This document shows, in pieces, positions 5,790-47,263 of a stretch of 47,263 bases of DNA. Numbering within the stretch: the stretch's first letter is position 1; each line of letters begins with the position of its first letter. Both the position numbers and the translations under genes were made by a program. Origin of the DNA: Candidatus Pollutiaquabacter sp. Its GTDB lineage: Bacteria > Bacteroidota > Bacteroidia > AKYH767-A > 2013-40CM-41-45. The notes under the pieces were generated by a model. That model was not told the origin of the DNA and made no database searches. It worked only from the letters and a program-made list of their open reading frames with translations. The DNA is taken from contig CANIAS010000019.1 in NCBI GenBank assembly GCA_947465495.1, positions 1-47,263 on the forward strand, in the 5' to 3' direction.

Positions 5790-7076
5790 ATGAAGCTGAT
5801 GAGTTTCGGGAAAAAGAATGTACTGTTTCTGTATTCCCTTGGGATGTTGGCATTAGCCGGCTGCGGCAGTAGCAACAGCGGTGAATTGACCGGTGTACTT
5901 CACCGTGAAAAATGGTTCCAGCCAGACCCTTACGGCATGGTATATATTCCAGCCGGTTCCTTTAACATGGGACCAAGTGACCAGGATGTTCCATACGCTG
6001 TTACTGCGCAAAGTAAATCGGTGACCATTCCGTCATTTTACATGGACCATACGGAGATCACTAATAATGAATATCGACAGTTCGTCTATTGGGTACAAGA
6101 TTCATTGGCGCACCGTTTGATTGGTGGCGAACACCTCCTCGAAGAAGGTGAGTACGGCGAAAGAATCAATTGGCAAGCTAAAATAAAGTGGGACGATGAG
6201 CAGAACCAGGAAGTGCTTGCGGAATTATTCCTTCCAGAAACTGAGCGTTTTTATCGTCGCAAAGAGATTGATACCCGTAAACTTAATTTTGAATATTATT
6301 GGATTGATTTGAAATCTGCCGCTCAGCGTGAAAGCCGTGAGCAAGGCAAAGTGGATCGTTCCGTTTTCATTAAAAAGGACGTCATTAATGTCTATCCAGA
6401 TACCCTGGCTTGGATCCATGACTACACTTATTCCTACCACGAGCCGTTAACTCAAATGTATTTCTGGCATCCGGCCTACGACGATTATCCTGTAGTAGGT
6501 GTTACTTGGAAACAAGCACGTGCTTTCTGCATCTGGCGTACGCAATTAATGAATAGTCACCTTGCTGATGAAGGCGGTGCCTATGTTCAAGATTTTCGTC
6601 TCCCAACAGAAGCTGAATGGGAATATGCAGCTCGTGGAGGTCTAGATCATTCGCCATTCCCATGGGGAGGTCCGTATATCCGTAACAGTCGTGGATGTTT
6701 CTTGGGCAACTTCAAGCCAATGCGAGGAAGCTACCAGGACGATGGTGGATTCTATACGGTTAAAGCTACTTCTTACTGGCCAAATGATTATGGTCTGTAT
6801 TGCATGGCTGGAAACGTTTCTGAGTGGACGAGTAACGCCTTTGACGAGTCTTCATACAGTTTTACACACGATATCAGCACCGATTACGAATACGAGGCAA
6901 AAGAATCTGATCCTCCTGCTATGAAGCGTAAAGTCATTCGTGGTGGTTCCTGGAAAGACGTGCAGTACTACTTGCAGAACGGCACGCGTACATATGAATA
7001 TCAGGACACTGCAAAGTGCTACATCGGTTTCCGTTGCGTTCAGAGTTTCCTCGGACGTGACAAAGCCGACTATTAA
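5790..7076 (+). CDS. gldK: Gliding motility/T9SS lipoprotein GldK (PorK)
   Basis: A 428-aa outer-membrane lipoprotein forming the periplasmic ring of the T9SS with GldN. The N-terminus has a lipobox LAGC with acylated Cys25. The body is a formylglycine-generating-enzyme/sulfatase-modifying-factor (FGE) fold: GMVYIPAGSFNMGPSD near residue 50, DHTEITNNEYRQFVYW, PVVGVTWKQARAFCIWR, RLPTEAEWEYAARGG, GNVSEWTSNAFD and the C-terminal IRGGSWKD...CYIGFRC. In this family the fold is structural, not enzymatic. A long insert between the two halves (about residues 110-225) is typical of GldK/GldJ. The next gene, gldL, starts 127 bp downstream, and gldL-M-N follow in order, which fixes the assignment. Confidence 0.97.
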   Translation: MKLMSFGKKNVLFLYSLGMLALAGCGSSNSGELTGVLHREKWFQPDPYGMVYIPAGSFNMGPSDQDVPYAVTAQSKSVTIPSFYMDHTEITNNEYRQFVYWVQDSLAHRLIGGEHLLEEGEYGERINWQAKIKWDDEQNQEVLAELFLPETERFYRRKEIDTRKLNFEYYWIDLKSAAQRESREQGKVDRSVFIKKDVINVYPDTLAWIHDYTYSYHEPLTQMYFWHPAYDDYPVVGVTWKQARAFCIWRTQLMNSHLADEGGAYVQDFRLPTEAEWEYAARGGLDHSPFPWGGPYIRNSRGCFLGNFKPMRGSYQDDGGFYTVKATSYWPNDYGLYCMAGNVSEWTSNAFDESSYSFTHDISTDYEYEAKESDPPAMKRKVIRGGSWKDVQYYLQNGTRTYEYQDTAKCYIGFRCVQSFLGRDKADY

Positions 7077-26060: not shown

Positions 26061-26473
26061 ATTCAGTGTGAGTTTGAGTGTTGAGTGTGGTCATACACAC
26101 CGACACCCGAACTCACACTTTTTTTATGCCTTTTGGCTTCCCAGACGTATTCAGTGTGAGTGTGAGTGTGAGTGTGAGTTTGAGTGTGAGTGTGAGTTTG
26201 AGTGTGAGTTTGAGTGTGAGTGTGAGTGTGAGTTTGAGTGTGAGTGTGAGTGTGAGTGTGAGTGTGAGAATGGTGATACACACCGACACCCGAACTCACA
26301 CTTTTTTTATGCCTTTTGGCTTCCCAGACGAATTCAGTGTGAGTGTGAGTGTGAGTGTGAGTTTGAGTGTGGTGATACACACCGACACCCGAACTCACAC
26401 TTTTTTTATGCCTGTTGGTTTCCCAGACGAATTCAGTGTGAGTTTGAGTGTGAGTTTGAGTTTGAGTGTGTGT
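26061..26473. repeat. Hexamer-expanded tandem terminator cassettes
   Basis: Cassettes start at ATTCAG (26061, 26149, 26332), and a fourth partial one starts at 26431. Each holds a run of GTGTGA/GTTTGA hexamers (a few in copy 1, about 19 in copy 2), then ACACCGACACCCGAACTCACAC, a T7 run, and a constant ~24-bp linker (ATGCCTTTTGGCTTCCCAGA...). In every cassette the hexamers are complementary to the ACTCACAC arm. All three forward frames and the reverse frame read as open (SVSV, ECEC, HTHT peptides) purely because the period is a multiple of three; no protein is called. Confidence 0.9.
26066..26125 (+). terminator. Terminator of tRNA-fMet (first cassette)
   Basis: GTGTGAGTTTGAGTGTTG (from 26066) can pair with CGACACCCGAACTCACAC (26101-26118) as an ~18-bp stem with two G:U pairs and one mismatch, followed by T7 (26119-26125). 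It begins 10 bp after the tRNA. Equivalent 3' arms with T runs end at 26308 and 26407. Confidence 0.75.
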
Positions 26474-38579: not shown

Positions 38580-38641
38580 TATATTTATTATATCAGTAAC
38601 AGGTTGTATCATTGTACAACATTCATATTGTCATTTCCCGC

Positions 38642-41600
38642 ATGAATACGAATCAAAACATCAAATTTGACTTAAAAACTATGATTATTAATTGGAATTC
38701 CAGTAGAAAAGCAATGGTTTTCGGTCGATGGTTAACGTTGGTAGTTTTTGTCGTCGGAATTTTAATAACAACGGAGTGTGCTGCACAAAATGTGTTAGTG
38801 ACGGCCACCGCAGGAACGACGAGTGGCTCCTACCTTACGCTGAGTGATGCATTCACGGCATTGAATACTGGTACACACCAGGGAGCTATTACCATTAAAA
38901 TTGTAAATAATACATCCGAGCCGGGCGCTCCAACGGCATTACTCAAGAGTGCTGCCCCTTCTAATTACACGAGTGTATCCATTAGTCCTTCCGGCGGCAA
39001 CTGGACCATCGGTGGTACGATTACCGCCAACCGTGCCATTGTCGAATTGAACGGCGCTGATAACGTGACGATTGATGGTGACGATCCAAACGTTACGGGT
39101 ACTCGAAATCTGACTATTGGTTTTTCTCTTCGAGCGGCGACCGCAGCAGCCTGTATTCGTGTGAGTTCAAATTCTACTACTGGTACTGATGGTGCAAATA
39201 ACAACACGATAAAGAATTGTATTATAACAGGAAATAGGTCCAATTTGAATACCACGGCTACGTATGGTATTAACCTGTCGAACTATTCCACGACATCGTT
39301 GTCTACTGGCGGGTACAGTTCTATAAATAACCGTTTTGAGAATAACCTCATTACTCGTTGTTATCATGGTGTTTGGGCAGTTGGCGCTTCGGCTCTTTAT
39401 CCCAATACAGGCATTCAGATCGTCAATAACATACTTGGAGATGGTACCGTTGCCGGAAATATTGGGAATCGAGGAGTTATCATCAGCTACTCAGCAACTA
39501 CCGAAGCTCAGGCAGCTATCATCAGTGGCAACGAAATTGTAGGAGGTGACCCGGGAACAAACGGTTACGGTGCCACCATCGCCGGTATTGAAATTGGTGC
39601 CGTTAATTTTGGTGCCAAGATTTTCAACAACTACGTTCACGATATCAAACAGCCAAGCACTGCCGGGTATGGCTCGTATGGAATTTACTTTACGGGAACG
39701 ACTTCTTGTGACTCTATTCGTTTTTATAACAACATCGTGCGTGATATTACGTGCAGTAATTTTACAGCAGCAACTACTTCGACGTTTACGAACTATGGCG
39801 TTTTTGTTTCCAGTAGTGCAACTGTCACGTTTGGTGATTTTAGCAATAATACCATTGTATTGAACATAGCCAATCCCACCGGTTCGACCGTTAATCCAAT
39901 ATCCTATGCCGTTTCTTTCGGCGCAAGTAGTGTGCGCATAAATAAATTCCGAAATAATATTATTGTAAATGGTGTTTCATCCACCAATTCTGTTGGTATA
40001 TATACCAATAGCAGCGCGATTTTTACGGCAGCCAATTATACTTCGTTTGGTGGACAAGTATGGGATAATAATTGTTACTGGGTTCCTGCAGGAGTAATCG
40101 GCTATTATGCCGCAACAAGTCAAGCTACTATCGCTGCATGGAGAACGGCCTCAGGGAAAGACATCAATTCGTATAACATTCAGCCTAATTTCGTGTCGAC
40201 TACCGACTTGCATATCAATGGCGCAATTTCTTCGTTGTTGGAGTCCGGCGGCCAGGCCACACGATACACGGTTGATTTCGATAATCAGTCTCGTCCTGGT
40301 CCTGCCGGGTCGGTTCGTGGAGGTGCAACTACTTTTGATGTAGGAGCGGATGAATTTGATGGCTTGCCATTTGCCCCACTAAGTATCACCAGTGCAGTGG
40401 CAACAGCAGCTGCTTGTTCGGCCATTACACATACTGTTACAGCTATAATAAATCCTGGCGCAATGCCACTTACATCAGTTATTTTGTCTAGCTCTTTCAA
40501 TGGCATTGCTCAATCGCCAATCACCATGGTTAATACGTCGGGCACTACGTGGACTGCTACTATTCCAGCCGCAAATCCATCGTATGCCAATGTTGCCTGG
40601 ACGATTTCAGCAACAAATGCAGCCGGTGTAACAACGGCTTCTGGTTCGTACCAGGACAATCCATTGTATGGAGTTGGATTAAATGCCAGTGCAACGCCTG
40701 CTACTTTGTGCGCTGGATCCGCTACTTCGTTATCCGTGGATGGTACTTATAGCGCCGTTTCATCCACGTATTCAAATCCGCCTGCGGTTACGTATCCGAC
40801 CGATGATGAAGATTTCGGCGGCATTACGCTCACAGACTCTGCTGGTGTAGTTACTGTGCTTTCCAATACAAGCACAATAAATTCATTGGTAGGCACCATC
40901 GGTACGGCGGCAGGTGTTGCTGGAAGCTACTCAGACTTCACCGCTTTCGGCCCCTATTCATTGACAGCCGGAAGTACGTATAATTTTTCCTGTTCGGCTT
41001 TATCCGGAGCTACTGCCTATCTAAATAATTCAGCTATTTACATCGACTTCAATCGGGATGGTGATTTTTCAGACCAGGGTGAAAACGTGTTTGTGGAAGC
41101 TGCGGCAGTAAATAATGGAGCGCATACAGTGACTGGCTCGTTTACATTGCCAGCAACCGCTTTCAGTGGACTCGCCCGAATGCGTGTTCTTTGTAACGAA
41201 GGTGCTGTTACTGGACCAACTATGACGATCACTCGTGGTGAATACGAAGACTATACGATCAATATATCCAGTGCTTACAATGGTGGAGGTGGAGTAGTAC
41301 CTGCTTTGACTTTCAATTGGAAAAATGGTGCTACAACCATAGGTAGCGGCACACCGTATACAACTAATGTAAGTTCCAGTACTTCCTATACAGTAACCGG
41401 AACTACCACCGCTGGATGTTTGGCATCAGCTAGTGTTTCGGTTACTGCAATCCCTACCCCATCCGCGCCAATTGTAACCAATTCGGTTCAATGCAGTCCA
41501 GGCGTTGCAGCTGCTTCAGTAGCCTCTTCAAGCGGCTTGACTGCCCCTGTGTTTAATTGGTATGCGAATGCGACTGGTGGCTCGGCGCTGCAGTCTAGCA

Positions 41601-44600
41601 CGGCTTCGACTTATGGAACTGCTATCAGTGCAACAACTATTTTCTACGTGTCTGAATTCGACGGAACATGTGAAAGTAGTCGTACGCCAGTCACTGCAAC
41701 TGTTAATACTCCCCCTGCGATTACAACTTCAGGGCCGGTAACCATTTGTGCAGGAACCTCTGCCACATTGTCGGCTTCAAGTTCCAATACTGGTTATTCC
41801 TACACATGGGATGGTGGACTAGGTAATGGTGCCGTAGTAACTGCTACTCCTTTAGCTACTAGAAATTACACAGTGACGGCATTGGATACCACTGCAGGAA
41901 GAGTATCTTCTGGATGTATAACTACAGCTAGTCTTAGCATCACTGTAAATCCTACTGTTAGTGGAGCTAGTGCAAATGCTAGCGCATCCATGATTTGTAG
42001 CGGCGGTTCCGTCAATTTGACCGCTACGGCAGCCAACCAGATTACGTCTCCAGGTTATTCGTTGAATGGTAACTCCGGCGTTTCTTTTATAGATGTTTCA
42101 ACTACAGGAGTGTCTGTTGGTACGCTTGCTGACGATAGCGAGCACAATATCTCACTGCCTGCTACATTCCGTTTCAACGGCGTGTCCTATACAAACGCTC
42201 GCGTTGGCAACAACGGTGTGCTAGTATTTGGCGCAACCACTGGCGATATTGTAAATAATAATTCATCGCTACCACAAGGAATTGCAACCACTGCTACCAG
42301 CACTACTGGAATCATAACAGGAACTGGAAATTCAGTCGCTGCAATTTGTGCTAACTGGGATGATATTATGCCATCTACTACAGTTAGCACGTCTATCGCC
42401 ACCCAGTTAGTAGGAAATATTTACGTGGTACAATGGACCAATGAAGACAATAATAACGCTGCGGGTAACGGAACTATCACCTTTGAAATTCAGTTAAATC
42501 TACTTACAGGTGTTATCAATATCGTCTATCCTGATATTACCTATGGCGCAGCGGGATATGATGGAGGTGGTTCGGCAACGATTGGTTTGAACTTCAGTTC
42601 TTTGTCCGCGTTACAGTTTTCGTATAATTCAGCATCCCTGGTGAATGGTCAATCCATCACCTTTACGCCAAATTCGTCCGCATTAACTTATTCTTGGACA
42701 TCAATACCTTCGGGCTTTACCTCCTCGCTTCAAAATCCGGCAGTCGCTTCTCAGACGGTGTCTACAACATATACCGTAGTCGCTTCTAATGCTTCGGGCT
42801 GTACGAGTTCTGCCTCCGTTTCTGTAAACGTCAGCAATCTTTCTGCAGCTGCTTCAGCTACTGCTGTAAGTTGTTTCGGAGGGAGCAACGGTACCATCAC
42901 AGCTGCTGGATCAGGATCCACCGGTGTTTATACCTATTCTTTAAATGGAACTAATTATCAGTCGAGTGGAATATTCTCAGGCAAGGCCGCAGGTGCTTAT
43001 ACTGTTTATGTAAAGGATGTGAATGGTTGTACCTCTACAGCATCTGTTACCGTTAGTCAGCCAGCTTTACCGGTGTCATTTAGTGTAGCTTCAGGTACGA
43101 ATCCGATTTGTTTCAATAGTACCAATGGAACAATTAGTTTTTCCGCCATGGGTGGTACTGGAGCTATTTCGTATCAAGTAAATGGAAATGCTGCGACATC
43201 ACCTATGACTGGATTAGTTGCTGGTACCTATGTGGTAGTTGCAACGGATGTAAATGGTTGTACGGCATCAACTTCCATCACGTTGGGTAACCCTATTGCA
43301 CCTTCCTTAGTAGCTACTGCGAGTGGTGTAAATTGTTATGGTGGCACATCTTCATTAAATGCTACCGGAGGATTTGCTACTTATACATGGTCTGGTCCTA
43401 ATAATTATGCTGCATCGACCCAATCGGCAGCTACTACGGCAGCGGGTGTTTATTCGGTAATGGCAACGACCTTGGAAGGATGTACTTCAACGGCCTCGGC
43501 AACGGTTACGATACCATCGTTATTAACGGTGTCGGCGAATGCTACTAACGCCTTGTGTTATGGTGGCAATGGTACGGTAGTAGTTGTTGCAAATGGTGGT
43601 CTGCCGCCCTATTTCGGTACAGGATCATTTTCTGTATTAGCCGGTAGTTATACCTATACAATTACGGATGCCAATGGTTGTGTGGCTACTGCATCCGCTA
43701 GTGTCACTGCTCCAACGCAATTGGTTGCTAATTCGGTGGGCACGGATGTGAATTGCAATGGTGGCACTGCAACAGTAACAGTAACTGCTGTTGGAGGCAC
43801 GGTACCTTATACTGGTGTTGGAGTTAACACGGTCAATGCAGGTACTTATACCTATACCATTACGGATGCTAATGCATGTCTTTCTTATACATCAATTACT
43901 ATTGGACAACCTGCTGCGCTTTCAGTGACAGCTAATGCTGCCAATTCAACGGTTTGTACAGGTGGTTCTACCACAATTACGGTAGCTGCTACTGGAGGTA
44001 CTGCTCCGTATGCTGGCATAGGTGCTTTCCCGCAGGGAGCCGGCATTCAAACATACACGGTAGTTGATGCTAATAACTGTAGCGCTTCCGCATCAGCAAC
44101 TGTTTCAATTCCTAATTTTATTATTATTGCTACTGCCGGTACACATGGTGTGATTTCTGATGCTGGTACTAATACAGTTGCATGTGGCACGGGCAAGTCA
44201 TTTACCATTACTCCGGATGCATGTTACCATGCCGTCGATGTAATTGTTGATGGAGTTTCAGTTGGCGCTGTCAGCTCCTATAGTTTCACAAATGTTTTAC
44301 TTAATCATGATATAACGGCTACGTTTGCTATCAATACATATACAGTCACTACTTCGGCTTCCAACGGTGGAACAATTACATCAGGTGCTATAGCAAATTG
44401 CGGGTCGTCCTTGTCTTTTACAGCCACTGCTGATCCGTATGCTCAGCTGGATAATTTGGTAGTTGATGGTGTTACTATTCCCTTTCCTGCAGGTACAACT
44501 ACGACTACATATACCCTTAGTACTATTAGTGCCAGTCATTCTATTCTGGCGAACTTTAGCGTTGTTATCTGTGCCAATCCTCCTGTAGCTACAACTCCTT

Positions 44601-47263
44601 CGACCAGTTCCATTTGTGCTAACCAGACGTATTCGTTGATTGGAAGCATTGGTGGATCTGCTATAACTGGCACTTGGTCCTCCTCTGGAACAGGTTCTTT
44701 TAACAATACTACTTATGGAACAGGTTCGGTGTACACACCGTCCAATTCAGACATCGCTGCTGGTGCTGTAACGATAACATTGACCACAAATGATCCTGAT
44801 GGTAGCGGCCCATGTACTTCCGGTACTGCTTCAACGGTAGTAAGTATTAACGAAAATACCAGCAACACAACAACCGCTGCTTCCTGTGATGAGTTTCAGT
44901 GGAATGAAACAGGGATTACTTATACCGCATCTGGTATTTATACTTCTGTTAGCGGTTGCAACTCAGAGATTCTTAATTTAACCATCACTGCATCTACGAG
45001 TAATACCACGATTGCCACTGCATGTGATTCTTATATATGGTCTGTGGATGGTTCTGAGTACACGGCTTCGGGGGTTTATTTTTCTGTAACAGGTTGTCAT
45101 ACGGAGATTTTGGATTTGACGATCGTTGAGTCCACGAGCAACACAACAACCGCTGCATCCTGCGATGAGTTTCAGTGGAATGAAACAGGGATTACTTATA
45201 CCGCATCTGGTATTTATACTTCTGTTAGCGGTTGCAACTCAGAGATTCTTAATTTAACCATCACTGCATCTACGAGCAATACCACGATTGCCACTGCATG
45301 TGATTCATATATATGGTCTGTGGATGGCTCTGCGTACACAGCTTCGGGGGTTTACTTTTCTGTAACAGGTTGCCATACGGAGATTTTGGATTTGACCATT
45401 ACTTCTTCCACGAGCAACACCACCACAGCATCAGCGTGTGATAGTTATACTTGGTCGGTGAATGGCGCAACGTATTCTCAAAGTGGCACCTATTCTTCGG
45501 TAGCTGGTTGTCATACCGAAATCCTAAATCTGGTTATCACCTCATCTACAAGTAATACCACGACTGCATCAACGTGTGATAGTTATACCTGGTCGGTGAA
45601 TGGCGCTACGTATTCTCAAAGTGGAACGTATTCTTCCGTCTCTGGTTGTCATACCGAAATCCTGAGCCTCGCGATCACCCCATCCACCAGCAACACCACG
45701 AATGCATCAGCGTGTGATAGTTACACCTGGTCGGTGAATGGAGCTACGTATTCTCAAAGCGGAACGTATTCTTCGGTATCCGGTTGTCATACGGAAATCC
45801 TGAGCCTCACGATCACCCCATCTACTAGCAACACCACCACTGCATCAGCGTGTGATAGTTATACCTGGTCGGTGAACGGCACTATGTATACGCAAAGCGG
45901 AACGTATTCTTCGTTAGCTGGTTGTCATACGGAAATCCTGAGCCTCACGATCACCCCATCTACTAGCAACACCACCACTGCATCAGCGTGTGATAGTTAT
46001 ACCTGGTCGGTGAATGGAACTACGTATTCTCAAAGTGGAACGTATTCTTCGTTAGCTGGTTGTCATACCGAAATCCTGAGTCTAACGATTACTCCTTCTA
46101 CTAGCAACACCACGACAGCGTCTGCGTGTGATAGTTATACCTGGTCGGTGAATGGCACAACGTATTCTCAAAGTGGCACCTATTCTTCGGTATCTGGTTG
46201 TCATACCGAAATTCTAAATCTGGTTATCACCTCATCTACGAGTAATACCACGACTGCATCAGCGTGTGATAGTTATACTTGGTCGGTGAATGGCGCAACG
46301 TATTCTCAAAGTGGCACCTATTCTTCGGTAGCTGGTTGTCATACGGAAATCCTGAGTCTAACGATTACGCCTTCCACGAGCAACACCACCACAGCATCAG
46401 CGTGTGATAGTTACACCTGGTCGGTGAATGGAACTACGTATTCTCAAAGCGGAACGTATTCTTCCGTCTCCGGTTGTCATACCGAAATCCTGAGCCTCAC
46501 GATCACCCCATCTACGAGTAATAACACCACAGCGTCTGCGTGCGATAGTTACACGTGGACAGTGAATGGAGCTACGTATTCTCAAAGTGGAACGTTTTCT
46601 TCCGTCTATAGTTGTCATACCGAAATCCTGAGTCTCACGATTACGCCTTCCACGAGCAATACTACCACAGCGTCTGCGTGCGATAGTTACACGTGGACAG
46701 TGAATGGAGCTACGTATTCTCAAAGCGGCACCTATTCTTCGGTATCCGGTTGTCATACCGAACTCCTGAGCCTCACGATCACCCCATCTACTAGCAACAC
46801 CACCACAGCATCAGCGTGTGATAGTTACACCTGGTCGGTGAATGGAGCAGCGTATTCTCAAAGCGGCACTTATTCTTCAGTAGCTGGTTGTCATACCGAA
46901 ATCCTAAGTCTCACGATTACTCCTTCTACCAACAACACCACCACAGCATCAGCGTGCGATAGTTATACCTGGTCGGTGAATGGCGCAACGTATTCTCAAA
47001 GTGGAACGTATTCTTCCGTCTCTGGTTGTCATACCGAAATTCTGAACCTAACCATAACCCCGTCTACCAGCAACACCACGACTGCATCAGCGTGCGATAA
47101 TTACACCTGGTCGGTGAATGGCGCAACGTATTCTCAAAGCGGCACCTATTCTTCGGTATCCGGTTGTCATACGGAAATCCTGAGCCTAACGATTACCCCA
47201 TCTACTAGCAACACCACGACAGCATCTACATGCGATAGTTATACCTGGTCGGTGAATGGCGCA
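38642..47263 (+). CDS. Giant multidomain SprB-like surface adhesin, 3' end beyond window
   Basis: One frame runs without a stop from the ATG at 38642 to the window end (2,874 codons). In-frame ATGs at 38681 and 38714 are alternatives; the last gives the cleanest signal peptide (MVFGRWLTLVVFVVG...CAAQ). By residue: about 50-560 parallel beta-helix-like (repeated NNxI...G patterns); about 780-880 a GEVED domain (YIDFNRDGDFSDQGENVF...GEYEDY); about 880-1130 Ig-like; about 1130-1345 a nidogen/choice-of-anchor-like domain (FRFNGVSYTNARVGNNGVLVFG, WTNEDN); about 1400-1825 six SprB-type repeats (CFGGSNGTITAAGSG...VKDVNGC); about 1825-1978 two InlB-B-like repeats (TVTTSASNGGTITSG); then 46-residue repeats from about 2073. 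SprB-type proteins are the mobile adhesins of T9SS-dependent gliding. The expected T9SS sorting domain lies outside the window. Confidence 0.88.
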   Translation, partial: MNTNQNIKFDLKTMIINWNSSRKAMVFGRWLTLVVFVVGILITTECAAQNVLVTATAGTTSGSYLTLSDAFTALNTGTHQGAITIKIVNNTSEPGAPTALLKSAAPSNYTSVSISPSGGNWTIGGTITANRAIVELNGADNVTIDGDDPNVTGTRNLTIGFSLRAATAAACIRVSSNSTTGTDGANNNTIKNCIITGNRSNLNTTATYGINLSNYSTTSLSTGGYSSINNRFENNLITRCYHGVWAVGASALYPNTGIQIVNNILGDGTVAGNIGNRGVIISYSATTEAQAAIISGNEIVGGDPGTNGYGATIAGIEIGAVNFGAKIFNNYVHDIKQPSTAGYGSYGIYFTGTTSCDSIRFYNNIVRDITCSNFTAATTSTFTNYGVFVSSSATVTFGDFSNNTIVLNIANPTGSTVNPISYAVSFGASSVRINKFRNNIIVNGVSSTNSVGIYTNSSAIFTAANYTSFGGQVWDNNCYWVPAGVIGYYAATSQATIAAWRTASGKDINSYNIQPNFVSTTDLHINGAISSLLESGGQATRYTVDFDNQSRPGPAGSVRGGATTFDVGADEFDGLPFAPLSITSAVATAAACSAITHTVTAIINPGAMPLTSVILSSSFNGIAQSPITMVNTSGTTWTATIPAANPSYANVAWTISATNAAGVTTASGSYQDNPLYGVGLNASATPATLCAGSATSLSVDGTYSAVSSTYSNPPAVTYPTDDEDFGGITLTDSAGVVTVLSNTSTINSLVGTIGTAAGVAGSYSDFTAFGPYSLTAGSTYNFSCSALSGATAYLNNSAIYIDFNRDGDFSDQGENVFVEAAAVNNGAHTVTGSFTLPATAFSGLARMRVLCNEGAVTGPTMTITRGEYEDYTINISSAYNGGGGVVPALTFNWKNGATTIGSGTPYTTNVSSSTSYTVTGTTTAGCLASASVSVTAIPTPSAPIVTNSVQCSPGVAAASVASSSGLTAPVFNWYANATGGSALQSSTASTYGTAISATTIFYVSEFDGTCESSRTPVTATVNTPPAITTSGPVTICAGTSATLSASSSNTGYSYTWDGGLGNGAVVTATPLATRNYTVTALDTTAGRVSSGCITTASLSITVNPTVSGASANASASMICSGGSVNLTATAANQITSPGYSLNGNSGVSFIDVSTTGVSVGTLADDSEHNISLPATFRFNGVSYTNARVGNNGVLVFGATTGDIVNNNSSLPQGIATTATSTTGIITGTGNSVAAICANWDDIMPSTTVSTSIATQLVGNIYVVQWTNEDNNNAAGNGTITFEIQLNLLTGVINIVYPDITYGAAGYDGGGSATIGLNFSSLSALQFSYNSASLVNGQSITFTPNSSALTYSWTSIPSGFTSSLQNPAVASQTVSTTYTVVASNASGCTSSASVSVNVSNLSAAASATAVSCFGGSNGTITAAGSGSTGVYTYSLNGTNYQSSGIFSGKAAGAYTVYVKDVNGCTSTASVTVSQPALPVSFSVASGTNPICFNSTNGTISFSAMGGTGAISYQVNGNAATSPMTGLVAGTYVVVATDVNGCTASTSITLGNPIAPSLVATASGVNCYGGTSSLNATGGFATYTWSGPNNYAASTQSAATTAAGVYSVMATTLEGCTSTASATVTIPSLLTVSANATNALCYGGNGTVVVVANGGLPPYFGTGSFSVLAGSYTYTITDANGCVATASASVTAPTQLVANSVGTDVNCNGGTATVTVTAVGGTVPYTGVGVNTVNAGTYTYTITDANACLSYTSITIGQPAALSVTANAANSTVCTGGSTTITVAATGGTAPYAGIGAFPQGAGIQTYTVVDANNCSASASATVSIPNFIIIATAGTHGVISDAGTNTVACGTGKSFTITPDACYHAVDVIVDGVSVGAVSSYSFTNVLLNHDITATFAINTYTVTTSASNGGTITSGAIANCGSSLSFTATADPYAQLDNLVVDGVTIPFPAGTTTTTYTLSTISASHSILANFSVVICANPPVATTPSTSSICANQTYSLIGSIGGSAITGTWSSSGTGSFNNTTYGTGSVYTPSNSDIAAGAVTITLTTNDPDGSGPCTSGTASTVVSINENTSNTTTAASCDEFQWNETGITYTASGIYTSVSGCNSEILNLTITASTSNTTIATACDSYIWSVDGSEYTASGVYFSVTGCHTEILDLTIVESTSNTTTAASCDEFQWNETGITYTASGIYTSVSGCNSEILNLTITASTSNTTIATACDSYIWSVDGSAYTASGVYFSVTGCHTEILDLTITSSTSNTTTASACDSYTWSVNGATYSQSGTYSSVAGCHTEILNLVITSSTSNTTTASTCDSYTWSVNGATYSQSGTYSSVSGCHTEILSLAITPSTSNTTNASACDSYTWSVNGATYSQSGTYSSVSGCHTEILSLTITPSTSNTTTASACDSYTWSVNGTMYTQSGTYSSLAGCHTEILSLTITPSTSNTTTASACDSYTWSVNGTTYSQSGTYSSLAGCHTEILSLTITPSTSNTTTASACDSYTWSVNGTTYSQSGTYSSVSGCHTEILNLVITSSTSNTTTASACDSYTWSVNGATYSQSGTYSSVAGCHTEILSLTITPSTSNTTTASACDSYTWSVNGTTYSQSGTYSSVSGCHTEILSLTITPSTSNNTTASACDSYTWTVNGATYSQSGTFSSVYSCHTEILSLTITPSTSNTTTASACDSYTWTVNGATYSQSGTYSSVSGCHTELLSLTITPSTSNTTTASACDSYTWSVNGAAYSQSGTYSSVAGCHTEILSLTITPSTNNTTTASACDSYTWSVNGATYSQSGTYSSVSGCHTEILNLTITPSTSNTTTASACDNYTWSVNGATYSQSGTYSSVSGCHTEILSLTITPSTSNTTTASTCDSYTWSVNGA
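42840..44115 (+). repeat. Six SprB-type protein repeats within the adhesin gene
   Basis: Six successive units of ~65-75 codons each begin with VxC(Y/F)GGxxG(T/S) and end with (T/V)D(A/V)N(G/A)C...VTxP (for example VKDVNGC, ATDVNGC, ITDANGC, ITDANAC, VVDANNC). They are diverged at DNA level, unlike the later 138-bp array, so they are older duplications. Confidence 0.8.
44858..45409 (+). repeat. 276-bp higher-order duplication (A-B-A-B units)
   Basis: Unit type A has CDEFQWNETGITYTASG and type B has CDSYIWSVDGSxYTASG. The pair 44858-45133 is repeated almost base for base at 45134-45409, so two-unit blocks duplicated after A and B had diverged. Confidence 0.9.
44858..47263 (+). repeat. 138-bp (46-residue) tandem repeat array in the adhesin gene
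   Basis: Units start every 138 bp from 44858 (45410, 45548, 45686 and so on to 47204): 17 full units and a partial 18th cut by the window end. Consensus: TSNTTTASACDSYTWSVNG then ATYSQSGTYSSVSGC then HTEILSLTITPS. Each unit has two cysteines (positions 10 and 34), apt to form one disulfide. Units 5-17 are near-identical in protein but vary at synonymous sites. The first four units are alternating variants A-B-A-B. Confidence 0.95.

Follow-up and report, generated by a model that had tools for sequence, protein, structure and literature searches.

Known means of stiffening bacterial stalks are calcium and isopeptide or ester bonds inside domains. Among described systems, a close counterpart of the repeats treated here is the SprB repeat (PF13573) of the SprB/RemA gliding adhesins of Flavobacterium, with two cysteines per immunoglobulin (Ig)-like repeat in giant Bacteroidota surface proteins. 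Here, we analyzed a stretch of 47,263 nucleotides from Candidatus Pollutiaquabacter sp. (assembly GCA_947465495.1, contig CANIAS010000019.1; hereafter the window, which is the whole of contig C19), at the end of which a giant open reading frame (ORF) carries a tandem array of 138-bp units, each encoding 46 residues with two cysteines. Our results indicate that the units of this predicted stalk are probably joined by disulfides between the first cysteine of one unit and the second cysteine of the next, C1(i)–C2(i+1), and are not closed singly.

SprB-like and 46-residue repeats co-occur in the same proteins, and an iterated SprB-type profile drifts into the 46-residue units. However, the array units are 46–48 residues long, whereas SprB-like repeats have ~66–77, and the giant protein, array included, has no Pfam match to SprB at E up to 1. 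PKD_3 and Ig_7 are likewise beta-rich extracellular modules; PKD_3 (PF16820) reached 20.3 bits over one unit (residues 2674–2709), below its gathering cut-off of 26.3, and the best-scoring Ig_7 stretch falls outside the array, which has no Pfam or NCBIfam match above cut-off.

The giant adhesins of Mobiluncus mulieris likewise consist of many Ig-like domains in a long row and carry covalent cross-links, but in the excerpted report (PMC10619420) those links, including one mapped disulfide, lie within a domain, whereas the links proposed for the array would lie between domains. Stalks of near-identical tandem repeats also occur in periscope proteins (PMC8201768) and with RTX extender repeats (PMC5380327, PMC7493085), where the repeats determine how long or how stiff the stalk is. 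In RTX repeats, the stiffness comes from calcium (PMC5380327), in the array putatively from disulfides at the junctions. According to an excerpt of a review, the hooks of Aureispira are heptamers of GhpA, a protein secreted by the type IX secretion system (T9SS) (PMC11205867). GhpA (PDB 9flw, 9fls, 9flv) is likewise giant, and about five of its domains align to five array units (Z 3.8, no better than for unrelated Ig proteins; rmsd 7.2 over 226 residues), but it has no sequence match to the array. What would be new in the array is the position of the staple, between units; stalk repeats strengthened by covalent bonds are known, and these would be a variant of them, from a family unnamed in the libraries searched.

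The array lies on the forward (+) strand, as do the other features of the giant ORF, and fills the window from position 44858 to its final base, with 17 full units plus 60 bp, no indels and an open frame; such a tandem array is far beyond chance. Units 1–4 (44858–45409) follow the order A-B-A-B, a 276-bp duplication in which the A copies are 98% identical in nucleotides and 100% in amino acids, the B copies 90% and 93%, and A and B ~60%. Units 5–17 (45410–47203) are of a third type, C, with Cys1 at codon 10 and Cys2 at codon 34, and share 77–94% of their DNA and 80–98% of their protein sequence; with the A copies, they may approach the highly identical repeats that mark periscope proteins. Of unit 18 (47204–47263), the first 60 bp are present; position 47263 is the end of the contig, not of the array. 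Contig C111 (locus L010; 3920 bp, same genome) opens with an exact copy of the last 58 bp (47206–47263), a 58-mer found a single time in C111 and a single time in the C19 array. By profile, C111 encodes eight units: the first two are C-type, the third is intermediate and the rest are divergent or A/B-like. Behind them come a C-terminal domain of 195 residues (L010:1103–1687) and a stop codon. If C19 and C111 adjoin, the protein has ~25 units, and units between them may have been lost in assembly; the unit number is a lower bound because the draft assembly breaks inside the array. An earlier note on this DNA had described at least 17 units at an exact 138-bp period, a two-unit A-B-A-B duplication among the first four and two cysteines at fixed positions; all three descriptions hold, the cysteines standing at positions 10 and 34 in 17/17 full units.

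Joint loss of cysteines in neighbouring units

Could the two cysteines of a unit pair with each other? This is the simplest reading of two conserved cysteines per unit, and it would make every unit a self-contained Ig-like module with a Cys10–Cys34 disulfide of its own. We evaluated the pairing from the units in which a cysteine has been lost. A profile made from the window units yielded a first set of 1584 units from 101 sources, and an enlarged set held 1774 units from 115 loci (126 of 137 ORFs, kept after duplicate removal). In the first set, Cys1 is a cysteine in 98% of 1504 aligned units and Cys2 in 97% of 1564; among the 1484 units with both columns, one cysteine is missing in 58 and both in none. 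C1(i) and C2(i+1) were lost jointly seven times versus 0.07 expected, compared with no joint loss within a unit and one for C2(i) and C1(i+1). All other C1–C2 offsets from −4 to +4, and C1–C1 and C2–C2 up to four units apart, gave 0 or 1.

In the enlarged set, C1(i) and C2(i+1) were lost jointly 8 times versus 0.12 expected (both kept in 1309 pairs, only C2 lost in 1, only C1 lost in 9, both lost in 8), and the within-unit joint loss was 1 versus 0.98 expected. The corresponding four counts were 592, 1, 7 and 7 after a 70% identity filter (662 pairs; p 4.7e-12), 131, 0, 3 and 3 after a 50% filter (167 pairs; p 4.8e-5) and 1098, 1, 7 and 2 when six rumen/gut loci sharing sites were dropped (p 1.8e-4). 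Nine of the 10 discordant pairs had lost C1 and kept the next C2. Most of the discordant "units", when their sequences were read by eye, are C-terminal halves of longer Ig-like domains admitted by a lax threshold, and the discordant pair of L062 has an extra cysteine at the junction.

The coupling analysis points to the same junction. C1 with the C2 of the next unit (C2') is the top off-diagonal inter-unit direct coupling, at z 9.4 (same-column couplings are stronger), or z 6.6 without the six rumen/gut loci; the next inter-unit couplings, columns 46–34' (z 3.3) and 46–32' (z 3.1), fall at that junction too. Further out, the C1–C2 coupling is 1.8 at i+2 and 1.5 at i+3, and random partners from the same run give 1.7–3.2. 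Within a unit, it is 0.6 and 0.9, which, together with the within-unit joint losses, argues against closure of each unit on itself. The longer SprB-like neighbours may lean to within-domain pairing (joint loss 3 versus 0.9 expected, p 0.045, a weak signal), in a test run with the 46-residue repeats masked owing to the profile drift. For the 46-residue units, we regard a Cys10–Cys34 closure as very improbable. The disulfide staple of the earlier note thus stands in that covariation shows the cysteines to be paired, but the partner of C1 in unit i is C2 of unit i+1 and not the C2 of its own unit.

Two of the losses at the ends of runs are raised as predicted from such a pairing: C1 is lost in 8/123 last units compared with 10/1197 in mid-run, and C2 in 7/121 first units compared with 8/1203. 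Furthermore, a cysteine stands at the junction before the C-terminal domain in 11/11 copies of that domain that directly follow a repeat versus 9/23 elsewhere (p 6.6e-4; stricter unit threshold, with 1 of 35 copies, cut by a contig end, left out). Such a cysteine could serve as partner to the last Cys1, which would otherwise remain unpaired. The domain itself has no Pfam or NCBIfam match; it has eight matches in the genome, one of them a short fragment, and homologues in 24/61 near genomes. An AlphaFold2 model of the last unit plus C-terminal domain of L045 is weak (predicted local distance difference test, pLDDT, 66.7), and its X-module/dockerin-like Foldseek rows are a lead only; we take the two terminal loops of the C111 domain to look dockerin-like. 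Possibly, this domain is another export or anchoring tail.

Predicted fold and the proposed stitching of the stalk

AlphaFold2 confidently modelled window units 6–10, with 66 relatives, at pLDDT 96.1, with strands at residues 2–10, 26–32 and 35–44 alike in each of the five units. In profile columns, the couplings 27–42 and 32–37 mark a hairpin, and W15, Y22, L41 and L43 form the core. The couplings 4–42 and 8–46 have the same column offset, which indicates that strands 1 and 3 run parallel. From this register, we infer that Cys1 lies level with column 48 at the top of the unit and Cys2 below column 1 at the bottom, at opposite ends, which would also speak against closure within the unit. Foldseek of the model against PDB returned nothing at E 0.001 or better, and PDB sequence searches gave no match for the array, two chance matches for a five-unit profile and none for the N-terminal part. 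In VIA-align, the five units aligned loosely with five domains of GhpA, and three units with three Ig domains of titin (domain counts made by dividing the aligned ranges), as would be expected of a linear string of units; we claim no fold family from these rows because all Z scores are 4.0 or lower.

These features suggest a chain stitch. The array would serve as the stalk in a secreted surface protein of great length, with minimal Ig-like beta modules of 46 residues following one another end to end. Strand 1 would end with Cys1 at the top of each unit and strand 3 begin with Cys2 at the bottom; with its two cysteines at opposite ends, a unit would be unable to close on itself. A Cys1(i)–Cys2(i+1) disulfide at every junction would make the stitch continuous, and the extra cysteine at the front of the C-terminal domain would pair with the last Cys1. 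Each stitch would span 70 residues and recur every 46, so that neighbouring stitches overlap. Because of this overlap, simple arithmetic leaves only ~22 of 92 residues to be released under load, compared with 44 of 92 for singly closed units. Such a tether would be stiff and stretch little, as befits a protein under pull at the cell surface. We somewhat favor the broader view that the arrays represent an uncatalogued Bacteroidota family with a stalk built as an interlaced covalent ladder, with overlapping inter-unit disulfides and, in the C-terminal domain, a cysteine dedicated to capping.

Several observations weigh against this proposal. The joint-loss events are few (8) and, as three gut loci share some of the sites, amount to about five independent events. 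L060 is a plain exception to joint loss. The opposite end losses are also raised, although less strongly (C1 in 5/90 first units, C2 in 5/119 last units), and C2 is kept in 114/121 first units with no identified partner. Other conserved columns change jointly in neighbouring units too (W15–W15', p 7e-55). Their low raw p-values arise because degenerate units cluster; since these values are as low as or lower than those of the cysteines, we give weight to direction and to the couplings instead, the cysteine joint loss being one-directional with an odds ratio of ~1160 versus 40. The predicted template modelling score (pTM) of the five-unit model is only 0.63. A T9SS tail (TIGR04183/TIGR04131) gave no NCBIfam match in the C111 ORF at E up to 0.1, a result that applies to the window gene through the 58-bp C19–C111 overlap. 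Finally, the genome has no match to VKOR, DsbB or Thioredoxin_4 (DsbA-like).

Might the cysteines then form no stable disulfides within a chain here and serve instead as metal ligands, reduced thiols or bonds between stalks? The lack of matches to oxidation proteins and the C2 of first units, which like some other end-unit cysteines has no identified partner, would fit this explanation. On the other hand, the one-to-one C1(i)–C2(i+1) loss pattern and the capping cysteine point to a partnership of two cysteines, the unit shows no strong conservation of a usual metal-binding residue such as His or a third Cys, and the periplasm of a gliding relative is known to contain disulfides (PMC12635249, in excerpt). 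We therefore judge free or metal-bound cysteines, or links between stalks, to be quite unlikely and retain the junction disulfides.

The giant gene and the evolution of its array

The array ends a giant ORF (38612–47263, 2884 codons) that is open at the contig end. TTG 38612 is merely the first possible start, with in-frame ATGs at 38642 and 38681, and a signal-peptide-like stretch, recognized by eye, ends near residue 59. Downstream lie a GEVED domain (PF20009; 41033–41263, residues 808–884; 58.2 bits, Pfam cut-off 24.4) and four stretches of Ig_7 (PF19081), the best at 41459–41707 (residues 950–1032; 44.3 bits, cut-off 27.3). Six Ig repeats of 66–77 residues with two cysteines each, SprB-like by eye, occupy 42839–44113 upstream of the array. 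Cysteine makes up 2.5% of the giant protein versus 0.24–0.46% of TopA and EngA. Pfam and NCBIfam recognized stalk-type domains and no adhesive domain, and the protein may act as an adhesin at the cell surface. The stalk of the earlier note is supported, as a long secreted one. The genome encodes a T9SS translocon, with SprA (TIGR04189, 2593 bits) and GldJ (484.5 bits), and has 126 T9SS tail matches, and so belongs to the gliding/T9SS type. Elsewhere in the window, an ORF at 5790–7076 has sub-threshold GldJ-family matches (best 58 bits; the genome's own GldJ is on C26), and ~19 copies of an AGTGTG hexamer with a 99-bp higher-order period lie at 26153–26470, between large coding genes.

Is the array partly a product of assembly? 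The contig breaks inside it, 131 58-mers are duplicated within it and the draft genome consists of 117 contigs; the number and order of units could thus be uncertain and the A-B-A-B block or the 13 C units mis-joined, which would be compatible with stitched junctions. However, no 121-mer is duplicated in the array, the units differ at many sites, the frame is open throughout and similar arrays are present in independent genomes, single-contig ones included. Tandem Repeats Finder scored the array at 2463 (period 138, 13.4 copies, 0% indels), with a second period of 276 bp over 44861–45396. We consider a mis-join unlikely, and the cysteine result is independent of the window array.

Strong purifying selection acts on the units at the protein level. 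Among units 5–17 (78 pairs), the proportions of synonymous (pS) and nonsynonymous (pN) differences are 0.42 and 0.047 (pN/pS 0.111). The A copies show 3 synonymous differences in 32.7 sites and 0 nonsynonymous ones, the B copies 8.5 differences in 33.7 synonymous sites and 5.5 in 104.3 nonsynonymous sites. The mainly synonymous variation and protein-level selection reported previously are thus upheld by a dN/dS-type comparison between units (pN/pS 0.11). "Recently amplified", on the other hand, applies to the A and B copies alone; with a pS of 0.42, the other 13 of the 17 units are old and not a recent burst. A better case of recent amplification is found in Flavobacterium urocaniciphilum (L034), with eight units of 96% mean protein identity.

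In the analysis of units 5–17, 217/378 informative site pairs failed the four-gamete test. Identity between units does not fall with distance along the array, and across 101 arrays of at least six units, the nearest unit lies within its own array for 573/1306 units. The unequal recombination or gene conversion proposed in the earlier note finds partial backing: the mosaic pattern fits unit-to-unit exchange, while recurrent synonymous mutation could explain part of it. The array probably changes by duplication of unit pairs and by exchange between units, under purifying selection.

Distribution and significance of the repeat family

Relatives of the repeat are encoded by 237/250 pattern stretches in GTDB contigs. 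We kept 80 of these stretches, as 76 loci, nearly all of them titled as Bacteroidota groups; a few other titles (Streptomyces, Nitrotoga) resemble mislabelled metagenome-assembled genomes. With the window array as the query, 19/61 near genomes match, and with the five-unit profile at E 1e-10, 12/395 genomes sampled from the phylum do (own genome included in both), so the repeat is widespread but patchy in the Bacteroidota. A run of 89 units is present in a Bacteroidales protein from horse faeces (L102, a frame of 5153 codons). Searches of plasmids and phages (tblastn) found no relatives, and three queries against viral contigs gave no confirmed one. A predicted protein of an uncultured marine phage (BFVD A0A8D9FS04) matches the five-unit model at E 4.5e-16. 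In the open-licence literature, the string CDSYTW was not found, and among the papers listed for combinations of repeat, disulfide and adhesin, no title or abstract opening describes disulfides that join one stalk repeat to another in bacteria.

If curated as a family, the repeat would fill an unnamed gap in the annotation of many Bacteroidota genomes, and the joint-loss test offers cheap discrimination of inter- from intra-unit disulfides in other tandem-repeat proteins. If the proposal is true, lacing of repeat to repeat by disulfides would be a further stalk design, with a predicted extensibility about half that of unit-closed repeats. In gliding species, the reported disulfide-based load path of SprF–GldK would then extend outward along the adhesin.

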